Below, piece after piece: positions 1,949 to 9,549 of a DNA stretch of 64,000 nt; position 1 is the stretch's first letter; every line of letters starts with the position of its first letter. Source of the stretch: Bifidobacteriaceae bacterium (GTDB taxonomy: Bacteria; Actinomycetota; Actinomycetes; Actinomycetales; WQXJ01); assembly GCA_031281585.1 (NCBI GenBank), contig JAITFE010000100.1:1-64000 (forward strand), read 5' to 3'. The notes beneath the pieces are model-generated. The model made no database searches. It saw only the letters and a list, made by a program, of their open reading frames with translations, and was not told the origin of the DNA. The position numbers were made by a program, and so were the translations under genes.

Positions 1949-3256
1949 TCACAAAGCGAAGCTGAAGCCCGGCGCGTAGCGCAGGGCGCGGGCCAGGCCC
2001 GTGGCGGCTTCGGAGACGCCGCTGGCCCCGGCCCCGGTCCGGGCGATCGCGCCGCGGGCCAGGTCGCGCATGTCGTCCAGTTTCGCGGCGGCGGCCTTGG
2101 CGTCCAGGTCCTCGGGAATCAACGAGGACGGCAGGTCGAACCGCTGGGCTAGCAGTTCCCAGGAGGTCAAGCTCGTGTCGAGCATCCGGACCTGGCCGGC
2201 CGCCTCGGTGGCCTCGCGCGCCAGGCGGGTCAGGTTGGCGGAGATGCGGGCCGTGCCCATGGCCAGCGGCGGCGCCAATGTGTGCAGGGCCCCGACCAGC
2301 GGCACCACCAAGCCGAGGTCTGAGGATCCGAGTTCAGAGGACCGCGACAGCGTGTCCAACAGGGCCCGGTCGACCAGCCGCGCGATTGCCAGCATCAGAC
2401 GCTGATTCGCCACCATCTCCCTGGACCGCTCCACTCCCAACGCGAGGGCGCGCAGCCGGATGCCGGTCTGCTCCACGGCGGTCTGAATGCGGTGCGCGGC
2501 GGTCAGCGGCGTGGCTGACCCGGACAGGGAGCGCGCGGCGCCCATGACCTGGGCGGCGCCTTCGGCCATGGGTTCGACCTGCTCCAGCAGCCCGGCGGCT
2601 GCGTCGATCAGCCGTTTGGTCGCGTCAAGCAGTTTCGCATGGGCAATCTGGAGGCGCTCAACCTGCCGGTCTGCGGCGACGGCGGCGGCCCAGACGCTGG
2701 CCAGGGCAGAATCCGAGGGCGGCTCCGGCACGGGCTGGGTGGGCGCCACCTCGGCGGGCAGGGCCGTCCGGAGCAGGTCGTCGTATGCCGCGAAGCCCAG
2801 CGATTTGAGTCCGGCCACGATCTCCTCGGCACCGGCCTGGGTGGCCTTGTCCAGCGAGGTTCCGGACGCGGTCGCGTCCGATTCGCGGGCGTTGGCCGCC
2901 GCGTAGATGGACTCCAGGCGCTCGGTGGCCCGGTCCTGCGCAGACGGGATGGCCACGCAGACCCGCGTGCCCTGGGTGGCCACCGCCGCCAGCAAGAACC
3001 AGTCCTCGCGAGCGGCCGGACCGCCGAGCTTGATGTACGCGCCGGTGTGGGAAGAGGCGTCCAGGCCGGCGGTGATCAGGCTCGCGACTCCCCACGGAAT
3101 GTCGTCGGCCAGCACCGCCGCGGCCGGCCCGCCCAGCAGTTGCGGCGGTCCCAGACCGGTGGTCTGGGCCAAGGCGTTGTTGACGCCGATCACGGCGCCC
3201 GAAGAGTCGGCGACAAAGATGACAATGCCGAAGGCGGGGTCCTCGCTGCTGGTCAC
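1949..3256 (-). CDS. Aer-like PAS-domain protein with long helical tail
   Basis: The protein has 435 residues. Residues 1-105 look like a PAS domain of the Aer/energy-sensing type: a ...GVNNALAQTTG... element, then DIPWGVASLITAGL and a WFLLAAVATQ strand, which match the DMP...F..L...G and Y-W-V-L-A-T-V pattern of that group. The remaining ~330 residues are Ala-rich, predicted helical and lack membrane segments. No kinase, HAMP or typical methyl-accepting hairpin was recognised. It is the third gene of a minus-strand operon, and its GTG start lies 9 bp after the preceding stop. By context it is probably a cytosolic sensor or partner of the two membrane proteins encoded upstream. Cofactor and output are unknown. 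Confidence 0.65.
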   Translation of the reverse strand: MTSSEDPAFGIVIFVADSSGAVIGVNNALAQTTGLGPPQLLGGPAAAVLADDIPWGVASLITAGLDASSHTGAYIKLGGPAAREDWFLLAAVATQGTRVCVAIPSAQDRATERLESIYAAANARESDATASGTSLDKATQAGAEEIVAGLKSLGFAAYDDLLRTALPAEVAPTQPVPEPPSDSALASVWAAAVAADRQVERLQIAHAKLLDATKRLIDAAAGLLEQVEPMAEGAAQVMGAARSLSGSATPLTAAHRIQTAVEQTGIRLRALALGVERSREMVANQRLMLAIARLVDRALLDTLSRSSELGSSDLGLVVPLVGALHTLAPPLAMGTARISANLTRLAREATEAAGQVRMLDTSLTSWELLAQRFDLPSSLIPEDLDAKAAAAKLDDMRDLARGAIARTGAGASGVSEAATGLARALRYAPGFSFAL

Positions 3257-3265
3257 GAGCCCAAC

Positions 3266-5341
3266 TTAGCCGATCTTCCGGGCCTCGGCCGGGATCGCGA
3301 GCGTCAGGATCGTGTCTGTGCCGTCGCCCGTCAACGCCGGCGATGCCGTCAACGACCCCCCCAACCGCCGGATCAGGGATAACACCGCGGTCGGTTTTGG
3401 CCCCAGGGCCAAGCGTCCGGGCGGTGCCTCGGCCGCGCGGTCTGAGATGGTGATGACCAGTTGCGACGCGGTGGACCGGGCCGCCACTTGCACCGCCAGC
3501 GTCGGCGACTTGGCGGCCGCCGCGTCGATCAGCTCCGCCACGGCGTGGGCCAGCCGGGCTGCCACCGGCTCCGGCACCGACGCCATGGTTTGGATCGCCC
3601 AACGCACTTGCCGGGGCCGCGCCACTTGCGCCAACGCTTCCTTCAGCACGTCGGTCACCAACAACGGCCCACCCGGTGCCGTGACTCCCAAAGCCGCGAT
3701 TTCCTGCGTCGCGGGGTACCCCTCCGCGTCCGATGCCGTCCGGTCGCCCCCCGGCAAACCCTCGCCCGCCGCAGGGGAGGGGACCGGCGCGCCCAAACCG
3801 GGCTGCGGAACAGGGACAGCCGGCGTGGCCGGGGAAGAAGGCGCTGGGGTGGCCTCCGGCGCGGCGGCTGGAGACGGCGCGGCCGCGGCCGAAGTTGCCG
3901 CGGGTGGGGATGGCGCGGGCCTGACTGGAGACGGCCTGGCTGGGGACGGCCTGGCTGGGGACGGCGCCTGGGTAAACACAAGGACGGCTTCCGGGGTTTG
4001 GCTGGGGACCGGCGTGGCACTAGGTCGTGGGAGCGGGAACGCGGGAGGAGCCGTCGCCGTCGGCGAGGCGTCCGGGGCGGGCGCGGGGGCCGGGCCGGAA
4101 GGGGCCGGATCGGCGGCTTCGGGGGCCCGCGCCTCGGGAGTTCCCGACACGGCGGGGACAGGAGGGGTGTTGGCCTGGACGGGAGAATTGGGAACTTGGG
4201 GCGAGAACTGCGGGGCAGCGGCCGGGGCCGGAGGGCTGGCGGGATCTGCCGGATCGGCGGGTCCGGGAGCCCAGGCTGCGGGAGCATCCGAAACGGCAGG
4301 TATTGCAGGAGGGGCGCTGGCTTGGACGGAAGCATCGGGAACTTGGTGCGAAAACTGCGGGGCGGCGGGATCAGCGGGTCCGGGAGCCCAAGCTTCGGGA
4401 GTCCCCGAAGCGGCGGGTGTCGGAGTGACGGAGGCTTGGGCGGGCGCGTCGGGGATCTGCGGCGAGGCCTGTGGGACAGCGGTCGGGGCCGGAGCGGGGG
4501 CGGCGGCTTGGACGGCATCGGGCGCGGCGGGCGCCCAGGCGCTGGGAGCGCCGACGGCCGGGGGCTGGTAGGAGACGGGGGAGGCGGGCTCCATTCGGCG
4601 GTAGACCGCGCGGCCGGGCCCGGCGCCGTGGCGGCCGGACCTTGGCCCCGCGAAACCGCTCAGACGCTGGGCCAGCGCGAGGCCGGGCGGGCTCAAGCGG
4701 TTGGCGAGGAAAACCAGGCCGACGGCGGTGGCGAGGGCGCCGGCGAGCCCGGCCACGAGGCGGGCCCGCGACGAGTCGTAGAGAGACTCCGCGGCCCGCG
4801 TCAGGGTGTCCAAGCGGGCGGGTCCGCTGGCGGCGCCAACCGACCGCGACGAGGACTCCGCGTAGGCGCGCGCGTGGCCGGACAGGGCGCCGTTGGCGAC
4901 GCTGGCCGCGAGTTGCTCGGGCGTTGAGGCCAGTTCGGCCGCCAAATCAGGCAACTGGCTCTGAATGCGAGCCTGCTCAAGCGCGGCGGAGGGATCCGCG
5001 AGCAACGTTCTGAGCGGCTCTGATTCGCCGCCGCTGAATTGCAGGCCGTCCAGCCCGGCCGCCTCCGCCGCGGCATTGAGGGAAGCGAAGACCGCGTCGG
5101 TGACCGTCGGGTCGGCCGCTCCGGCGAATTCGGCCTCGACGGCGGAGCCGGCTTGGTCGGCGGCCTGCATCAGCGCGACGATTCGCCGGTCTTCCGAGGC
5201 GGCCGCGACCGTGCGGGCTCCCGTGACGGTGGTGTAGACGCAGGTGCAGAACGCGATGGCGAGGAGAACCGCGGTGGCGCGAAGAACTTGCCGATGTCCG
5301 GGGTCCGGACTCGGCCGCGGGGCTTCCTTGTGCGCGGTCAC
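3266..5341 (-). CDS. Membrane sensor-like protein with degenerate HATPase domain
   Basis: The protein has 691 residues. Membrane helices at about 21-41 and 195-213 flank a ~150-residue, probably helical, external domain. A very long Pro/Ala/Ser linker (about 250-545) follows, containing three imperfect ~40-residue repeats. Residues ~570-686 resemble the ATP-binding domain of CvnA-type actinobacterial histidine kinases: HAVAELIDAAAAKSP, then LVITISDRAAE, ending GTDTILTLAIP. The N-box asparagine expected after ELID is alanine, and the G1 box (normally DxGxG) reads DRAAE. No phosphorylatable histidine block is apparent. ATP hydrolysis is therefore doubtful, and it may be a pseudokinase-like sensor or scaffold. 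It is the middle gene of a three-gene operon. The external ligand is unknown. Confidence 0.7.
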   Translation of the reverse strand: MTAHKEAPRPSPDPGHRQVLRATAVLLAIAFCTCVYTTVTGARTVAAASEDRRIVALMQAADQAGSAVEAEFAGAADPTVTDAVFASLNAAAEAAGLDGLQFSGGESEPLRTLLADPSAALEQARIQSQLPDLAAELASTPEQLAASVANGALSGHARAYAESSSRSVGAASGPARLDTLTRAAESLYDSSRARLVAGLAGALATAVGLVFLANRLSPPGLALAQRLSGFAGPRSGRHGAGPGRAVYRRMEPASPVSYQPPAVGAPSAWAPAAPDAVQAAAPAPAPTAVPQASPQIPDAPAQASVTPTPAASGTPEAWAPGPADPAAPQFSHQVPDASVQASAPPAIPAVSDAPAAWAPGPADPADPASPPAPAAAPQFSPQVPNSPVQANTPPVPAVSGTPEARAPEAADPAPSGPAPAPAPDASPTATAPPAFPLPRPSATPVPSQTPEAVLVFTQAPSPARPSPARPSPVRPAPSPPAATSAAAAPSPAAAPEATPAPSSPATPAVPVPQPGLGAPVPSPAAGEGLPGGDRTASDAEGYPATQEIAALGVTAPGGPLLVTDVLKEALAQVARPRQVRWAIQTMASVPEPVAARLAHAVAELIDAAAAKSPTLAVQVAARSTASQLVITISDRAAEAPPGRLALGPKPTAVLSLIRRLGGSLTASPALTGDGTDTILTLAIPAEARKIG
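4106..4465 (-). repeat. Three imperfect ~40-residue repeats in the linker
   Basis: Residues ~293-412 of the protein contain three versions of a unit: QIPDAPAQAS, QVPDASVQAS or QVPNSPVQAN, followed by P-A-[AV]-S-G/D-[TA]-P and then EAWAPGPADP or a variant. The DNA copies are diverged, so this is an older expansion rather than a fresh tandem duplication. Confidence 0.65.
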
Positions 5342-5369
5342 CTAACTCGGCGCTAGTCGGAACCGCCGG

Positions 5370-7019
5370 TCACTTGTCGCCGGTGGTGCGCCACGGCACT
5401 CGGGGCTTGCCGCTGGCCGGCTTCGGCTTTTCGGTGGCGTCCTCGGGCTTCGGGGCGGTTGGAGCGGATGAAACGGGCGGGGCTGGGGCGGCTGGCGGCT
5501 TGGCGCCGGTCGGTCGGGCCCCCGTGGGCGGCGGCGTTGTCGTTGCCTTGGGAGCGGCGGCGGGCTTGGCGACCGGGGCGCCCGGAGCCGAGCCTTGAGC
5601 GGGTCGCGGGCTGGGGGGCTTGGGGCCGGCCGGAGCGCCGGTGGGGGCCGGTCCAGGAGAAACTGGCTTGGTGGCTGCAGGCGTCGCCGCGGCCCCGGCT
5701 GTCGGCGCGGCGGCGGGGGCTTGCCCGGCAGAAGAGGGTTTGACGGGGGCGGAGGCCGGCTTCGTGGAAGCCGGGGCCGGCGCTAGGGACGCCGCAGCCG
5801 GAGCGGCGGCAGCGGGAGCGGCTCCGGTGCTGGGCTGGGCCCCTGCCGTCTTTTGTCCGCCGGGCGCCGGGGCGAAGGGCACGCGGCGCTTCTTGCCTCC
5901 CGGCTGGCCGACGGGGGTGGACTCGGTGGCCTGGGCGCCGGCGGGTGCCTTGGGGACTGCCGCGGCTGGCGCGGCAGCCGCAGTTGCCGGTTTGGCCGAG
6001 GAAACGGGGCCCTTGCCGGGGGCGTCTTCAGCCTTGGCGGGCTTCGCCTCTGCGGGTGGCTTCTTGTCCCGCCCGAGGGGCAAGCGCTTGGCTTTGCCAC
6101 CGCCGCCGTCCTTGGTCCCGGCCGGGCCGGCCTTCGGAGGCGCTCCGGCCGCTGCGGCCTTCTTGGGCGCGGGGGCGGACGCGGGCGCCCACTGGGAGCC
6201 CTTGATGAAGTACACCAGCCAGAGCGCGATGGCGATCAGCAGGAGCACGCCGGCGACAATCCAAAGGGCCACGGGCAGCTTGCCCGTTTGCTCGGCGGCC
6301 GTCTTGGCCGTTTCCGCCAAAGTCTTCAGGGCGACGGCCCGGCCGTCGCTCTCAGGCACATCCTGGTCGATCCGCACGGGAATGGACTGATCCGGGTTGC
6401 CCATCGCCTGAGCGAAGGTTCTGGCCTGCGGTCCCAAAACGGGGTCGTGGAACAGAGCGGGCGCCTTGCTGGCGAAGGCGTAGAGCGACTTCCGCAGAGC
6501 GGTGAAGGTGGCCTGGCAGGGACCGTCCGCCTTGGCGCACTCGTCGGCGCCGGAGACATGTCCGCTCGTCAGCTCTTCGCGAGCCATCTTGATGCGGTCC
6601 GCCGGGTTCTCCACGAGCAGCTTGAACTGCTTCTCGCTTCCCTTGTCCTCAAGTTTCATGGCGTCAACGCCGTATTTGGCCGCCTGTTCGCCGAGCTTCT
6701 TCGCCGCATCGTCGACGGCTTCCGGCTCCGGCTGGCGCCCGGTGGCGTGGGCGCTGACCCAGTCGCTCCGCTCGGTGTAGAGGGCGCGGTCCGCCTCGTT
6801 GACCGCCTCGAGGACCTGGACAAGCTGCTGGTCTTGAGTCGCGTCGCCCTCTTCGCGGGCGCCGGCGGCGGACCGGATGACGGCGAACACGCCCGTGGCC
6901 GCCGCCACGACTGAGACCACAATGGCCGAAATTAGGACCAGTTGGCGCAATTGGCGCCGGTCGCCGCTGGCTGGATCGACAGGCTTGGATGCGCCGGGTG
7001 AGGTCGAGGTCGATGTCAT
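5370..7019 (-). CDS. Double-spanning membrane protein with Pro/Ala/Lys-rich tail
   Basis: The protein has 549 residues. One helix at about 27-48 and another at 249-272 enclose a ~200-residue helical external domain with two cysteines (C161 and C168) that could form a disulphide. The cytosolic C-terminal half (273-549) is low-complexity Pro/Ala/Lys/Gly and ends in a short basic segment (GKPRVPWRTTG). Topology and order match the next gene in the operon, but no HATPase-like domain is present. The pair looks like related sensor or receptor subunits whose external domains may share a fold. It is the first gene of the operon, with a 28-bp gap to the next. The ATG start has only a weak ribosome site. 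No function can be assigned. Confidence 0.65.
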   Translation of the reverse strand: MTSTSTSPGASKPVDPASGDRRQLRQLVLISAIVVSVVAAATGVFAVIRSAAGAREEGDATQDQQLVQVLEAVNEADRALYTERSDWVSAHATGRQPEPEAVDDAAKKLGEQAAKYGVDAMKLEDKGSEKQFKLLVENPADRIKMAREELTSGHVSGADECAKADGPCQATFTALRKSLYAFASKAPALFHDPVLGPQARTFAQAMGNPDQSIPVRIDQDVPESDGRAVALKTLAETAKTAAEQTGKLPVALWIVAGVLLLIAIALWLVYFIKGSQWAPASAPAPKKAAAAGAPPKAGPAGTKDGGGGKAKRLPLGRDKKPPAEAKPAKAEDAPGKGPVSSAKPATAAAAPAAAVPKAPAGAQATESTPVGQPGGKKRRVPFAPAPGGQKTAGAQPSTGAAPAAAAPAAASLAPAPASTKPASAPVKPSSAGQAPAAAPTAGAAATPAATKPVSPGPAPTGAPAGPKPPSPRPAQGSAPGAPVAKPAAAPKATTTPPPTGARPTGAKPPAAPAPPVSSAPTAPKPEDATEKPKPASGKPRVPWRTTGDK

Positions 7020-7115
7020 TGTTCACCAATCCGTAGTGCGTTGAGCCCGAGGGAACTGCTGGCGGGGTCCCGGTCCCAGTTGGTAATTTCACCTACCGGA
7101 GACGCTACCCTACCA

Positions 7116-7131
7116 GGTGACCTGGGTCACA
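7116..7131. promoter_or_regulatory. CRP/GlxR-like palindrome
   Basis: GGTGACCTGGGTCACA matches the TGTGA-N6-TCACA pattern of actinobacterial CRP/GlxR sites at all but one position. It lies in the divergent gap between the sensor operon (start 7019) and ligA (start 7327). Seventeen bases starting at 7117 are identical to a site at 41634-41650. Which gene it controls is unclear; it lies about 100 bp upstream of the sensor operon. I see no gene in the rest of 7020-7326. Confidence 0.5.
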
Positions 7132-7185
7132 GGGGAACGGGGGAGAATCCTATTCGGAATTTGGCGTCTTTGGCCATCGGCGTAA

Positions 7186-9549
<2,364 letters not shown>

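Follow-up and report, generated by a model that had tools for sequence, protein, structure and literature searches.

A CvnA-derived membrane operon encoding a predicted pseudokinase and a PAS-helical protein beside ligA in a family of gut-dwelling actinobacteria

The window, i.e. the whole stretch of 64,000 nucleotides that was analysed (contig JAITFE010000100.1, positions 1 to 64,000), comes from a 3.98 Mb draft genome, among whose named relatives Bifidobacteriaceae metagenome-assembled genomes are the closest. Three co-directional genes on its minus strand, P0001, P0002 and P0003, separated by intergenic gaps of 28 and 9 bp, constitute an operon with the following features:

5370..7019, minus strand: P0001, 549 aa; transmembrane helix (about 27-49), helical ectodomain (about 50-247), transmembrane helix (248-275) and Ala/Pro/Lys-rich tail
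3266..5341, minus strand: P0002, 691 aa; transmembrane helix, ectodomain, transmembrane helix, Pro/Ala-rich linker and C-terminal CvnA-type ATPase domain
3284..3676, minus strand: degenerate HATPase (predicted pseudokinase) domain in P0002 (residues 556-686 approximately), supported by AF2, VIA-align, hhalign and dN/dS
1949..3256, minus strand: P0003, 435 aa; N-terminal PAS domain and helical tail of about 300 residues
7020..7326, no strand assigned: intergenic region between P0001 and the divergent ligA, in which any promoter of the operon must be located

As the first-pass annotation of this DNA had stated, no roadblock or GTPase gene adjoins the operon, and no DUF742 gene does so either: its neighbours are ligA, from which it is divergent, and a gene for a zinc-ribbon protein. 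In the window genome, DUF742 and roadblock matches are confined to another contig, G000:C143. In the relatives the operon genes overlap or lie close to each other and their order beside ligA is conserved. Promoter and terminator scans at the operon gave nothing above shuffled sequences, and no sigma-70-like site was detected in 7020..7326. None of the three products matched a Pfam or NCBIfam family above cut-off, and no published description of the operon, or of the pilus-linked conservon described below, was found in the open-access literature.

The two membrane proteins had been described as sharing one layout (helix, external helical domain, helix, long cytosolic tail), and this was borne out. 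Residues 1-280 of P0001 gave an all-helical AF2 model (pLDDT 73 from an input of 4 sequences), and the N-terminal halves of P0001 and P0002, comprising the ectodomain and the transmembrane helices on both sides of it, are homologous (hhalign 98.8 % over 201 columns, rising to 99.0 % with more sequences). The best structural match of the P0001 ectodomain model, built from 4 sequences, was the NIT protein NasR (4akk_B; Z 12.9 over 173 residues, the next match reaching 8.5). Since the Foldseek match to the NasR NIT domain was weak (E 0.24) and canonical CvnA sensor-region profiles did not match the P0001/P0002 ectodomain (probability under 3, barely above the reversed control), a NIT-type ectodomain should be regarded as a lead suggested by the model and not as a result. 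This lack of sequence match to canonical sensor regions is also a difference between P0002 and CvnA proteins. P0001 has no output domain. Its tail ends with PRVPWRTTGDK, and R-[VI]-P-W-R is C-terminal in nine of the ten complete orthologues. CvnA tails carry an LPxR motif (PMC4316618); the likeness of the P0001 tail motif to it extends over four residues only and may be due to chance.

Residues 528-691 of P0002 were modelled by AF2 (pLDDT 68.5) as the CA fold of histidine kinases. The model had 267 PDB matches at E<=0.001 and aligned with 6lgq_C at a VIA-align Z of 15.5 over 128 residues (rmsd 2.2), so the HATPase assignment made from the letters passed the check by fold prediction. The ATPase domain was also matched to a set of intact CvnA proteins (hhalign 98.5 %, E 3.6e-15); the alignment with the CvnA profile begins after the DHp, and P0002 has neither a DHp nor a phosphoacceptor His. 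The loss of key residues noted earlier was confirmed: the N-box reads ELIDAAAAKS, with Ala in place of Asn, the G1 box reads DRAAE, and the ATP lid is missing too. The N-box D-A-A, the replacement of the G1 glycines and the deletion of approximately 19 ATP-lid residues were seen in 10/10 orthologues examined, which come from the window's genus (g1) and two sister genera (g4 and g5). The dN/dS between the window and the related locus L022 was 0.19 for the P0002 ATPase domain and 0.15 for P0003, with a range of 0.15-0.31 for the folded domains and values of 0.43-0.52 for the tails; the sensor halves, the P0002 CA domain and P0003 are all under purifying selection. Since the ATP-binding elements have been lost and dN/dS is low, the P0002 ATPase domain is, as judged from sequence, a pseudokinase that is catalytically dead yet kept by selection.

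The P0003 PAS domain had been described as Aer-like. Among PDB structures it does match the PAS domain of E. coli Aer (8dik) best, though with an E-value of no more than 0.005, and the residues that would contact FAD are gone. Aer is likewise the best solved match of the PAS protein encoded at the type IV pilus locus of the same genome, in this case at 1.4e-18. In Aer, FAD is contacted by R57, M69, W70, N85 and R115 (PMC9668731). Equivalents of R57, M69/W70, N85 and R115 are absent from the P0003 orthologues and present in the pilus-locus paralogue, and no retained ligand site was recognised in the P0003 PAS domain. P0003 differs from Aer also in having no chemotaxis signalling domain. The two PAS proteins of this genome are full-length homologues (hhalign 99.8 %, 450 columns), and the P0003 orthologues form a separate long-stemmed clade in the PAS-protein comparison. 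To judge from these alignments, the P0003 PAS domain is Aer-type by descent and has lost its FAD contacts. PAS proteins of this kind are also encoded as solitary genes in other Actinomycetota.

The type IV pilus locus of the window genome (L032, on G000:C143) encodes pilM, a prepilin peptidase, an RCC1-repeat protein, a CvnA-type kinase with intact N and G boxes, roadblock, DUF742 and GTPase proteins, the PAS protein, pilB and pilT. Within L032:228-13304 the kinase, roadblock, DUF742, GTPase and PAS genes make up a complete conservon immediately upstream of pilB and pilT. At the likely phosphoacceptor position, which is a His in several other CvnA proteins (LDHLA[AT]R[MI]RR), the pilus-locus CvnA (L032:6232-8811) has Asn (FALDNLMARMRR). 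The pilus loci of genus g3 have the PAS gene directly after a CvnA-type gene with degenerate N-box and G1 box, and have no roadblock or DUF742 gene. The degenerate g3 CvnA-type genes beside the PAS gene are:

L113:10702-12657, degenerate CvnA-type gene
L114:3479-5170, degenerate CvnA-type gene
L115:2338-4863, degenerate CvnA-type gene

With the g3 pilus loci and the P0002/P0003 operon, a PAS protein together with a degenerate CvnA is therefore found twice in the family, at two loci.

A search of genome contigs with P0002 returned only two close relatives. With P0001 profiles the locus was found in five of the family's genera (g1, g3, g4, g5 and g6), including G011, G015 and G017 of g3 and G014 of g6. 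In the rest of the genomes searched (396 from the order and 396 from the phylum), P0001 profiles gave no convincing locus and three marginal matches, all in the order, so that within the genomes sampled the module was found only in this gut-dwelling actinobacterial family. The P0002 orthologues of g3 and g6 were missed with the window's ATPase domain as query and were recovered only via P0001. Their boxes are intact in three genomes (VEVLDNAARFS and DYGPGM in G011, LLNNAIRFS and DEGTGL in G014, VEVLDNAARFS and DYGVGM in G017), and those of G011 and G014 match Pfam HATPase_c above cut-off. The place of the G017 gene beside ligA is inferred, since it is on a different contig from the G017 P0001 gene. 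The first-pass annotation had counted against itself any close homologues with intact catalytic boxes and a known pathway; intact N and G boxes did turn up in these sister genera, but no known pathway came with them.

The first-pass annotation had asked for a survey of whether the three genes always occur together, and they do not. P0001 and P0002 are family-wide, whereas P0003 orthologues (E<1e-100) are present in one of the two clades only, namely in g1, g4 and g5. No P0003 orthologue follows P0002 in G011 or G014, and none was found in G017 either. The position of P0003 is occupied in G011 by a cobalamin adenosyltransferase-like gene (L157:1952-2485, Pfam PF01923), with a 4-bp overlap between it and the end of the intact P0002 gene. 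In the LigA tree, g3 and g6 are on the opposite side of strongly supported branches from g1, g4 and g5. Since this tree splits both states on one branch, the combination of PAS gene presence and ATP-site loss fits one change, and we infer that the intact P0002 is the ancestral state. With a single event to go by, besides the g3 pilus locus, the PAS gene and the loss of the ATP site are correlated, which does not prove that one caused the other. All three genes are retained in G012 (96 % complete) and G013 (95 %), which have no pilT above cut-off, no DUF742 and no roadblock, an absence that is likely but not certain because these are draft genomes; no pilT, DUF742 or roadblock was found in G014 either, in which P0001 and P0002 are present. 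Since none of pilT, DUF742 and roadblock was detected in G012 or G013, the module need not act via them.

The operon is CvnA-derived, and by its parts it is neither a conservon nor a two-component system. The earlier view of a module outside the standard systems stands as regards this composition but not as regards kinship, since P0002 has a CvnA-type domain and P0003 shares homology with the pilus-locus PAS protein. The explanation that we favour, at about an even chance, is a membrane sensory complex derived from a conservon CvnA sensor kinase, in which pseudokinase and PAS protein would be coupled conformationally, without phosphotransfer. One sensor half was duplicated, as the homology of the P0001 and P0002 halves shows. 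The P0001 copy carries only the low-complexity tail with the conserved C-terminal R-[VI]-P-W-R, and the P0002 copy is joined to the CvnA-type ATPase domain, which has lost the DHp and, in the PAS-bearing clade, all its ATP-binding elements. An external signal would enter via the P0001/P0002 ectodomains. The cytosolic P0003 probably docks on the P0002 pseudokinase domain, by analogy with CvnF8, which binds and stimulates CvnA8 (PMC13343842), and the output would be altered P0002-P0003 binding and not phosphotransfer. The GTPase system or the pilus would not be strictly needed, as far as draft genomes can tell, since neither is detectable in two near-complete genera that retain the module. It is suggested more tentatively, with distinctly less than even confidence, that the PAS accessory protein replaced the CvnA-type catalytic output, erasure of the ATP site on the PAS-bearing branch leading to a phosphotransfer-free and G-protein-free complex of G-protein-system origin.

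P0002 and P0003 could instead provide a second input arm of the pilus-locus conservon, acting in trans on CvnB-CvnC-CvnD (G000:C143) and adjusting pilus activity. The CvnA-type domain of P0002, the homology of P0003 to the conservon's own PAS protein and the presence of both loci in nearly all genus g1 genomes fit such a role, but G012 and G013, which keep the three genes without these conservon and pilus components, and G014, with P0001/P0002 and equally without them, render it unlikely. The idea of a module serving type IV pili was demoted on account of the same two genomes, G012 and G013. The operon might also encode a structural membrane scaffold and not a sensor, the membrane proteins and their low-complexity tails positioning P0003 or an envelope factor and the dead ATPase fold being only a docking block. 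The loss of catalysis, the length of the low-complexity tails and the short C-terminal P0001 motif, conserved in 9/10 complete orthologues, agree with this, but the resemblance of the ectodomain model to the NasR NIT sensor (Z 12.9, next 8.5) and the purifying selection on the sensor halves speak for sensing, and we consider a pure scaffold improbable. Finally, a decaying conservon remnant heading for loss would account for the missing active site and the lack of conservon partners nearby; the open frames in three genera, the folded-domain dN/dS of 0.15-0.31 and the conserved order beside ligA make this very improbable, and pseudogene decay of the module was rejected in view of dN/dS and conservation.

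Several known systems come close to the favoured sensory complex. P0002 resembles the CvnA of conservons, the actinobacterial G-protein systems, in its order of transmembrane helix, ectodomain, transmembrane helix, long Pro/Ala-rich segment and CvnA-type ATPase domain, and differs in having no DHp, ATP-binding residues or lid and no roadblock, DUF742 or GTPase gene adjoining. P0003 is comparable to CvnF and CvnE (PMC13343842) in that it is cytosolic, of sensor type, encoded next to a CvnA-type protein and possibly a modulator of the ATPase domain, but it is PAS-helical, not GAF or P450, and its partner kinase is dead. The accessory CvnF and CvnE go with CvnA proteins that have no ectodomain (PMC13343842); the pilus-locus CvnA fits this rule, whereas P0002, which has an ectodomain, does not. 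The pilus-locus conservon shares with the operon a full-length homologous PAS protein adjoining a CvnA-type protein, but its CvnA boxes are intact, CvnB/C/D then follow and its PAS protein keeps the Aer-type FAD contacts.

How the signal is transferred from a CvnA-type kinase to the GTPase is an open question (PMC13343842). The family offers a natural experiment in which the kinase of the same locus is live and lacks a PAS partner in one clade but is dead and has a PAS partner in the other, and in which a related PAS-CvnA pair occurs with and without G-protein parts at the pilus locus. The comparison suggests that the signal can consist in an accessory protein binding to the ATPase domain.

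The position of the conservon directly upstream of pilB and pilT hints that type IV pili of Actinomycetota may be controlled in an MglA-like way. In the pilus loci an RCC1-repeat gene (L032:8890-10896 and L113:12633-14465) has the pilM/pilN-type genes on one side and the CvnA-type gene on the other, and its product is possibly a surface protein. G003 has two pilus-conservon loci (G003:C148 and G003:C354) with PAS proteins 86-88 % identical to that of the window genome, which reflects either duplication or mixed bins, this draft being 7 % contaminated. A second PAS paralogue of the window genome (L120:9679-11238, G000:C143), 57 % identical to the pilus-locus one, is solitary and lies just downstream of large reading frames resembling rpoB and rpoC.
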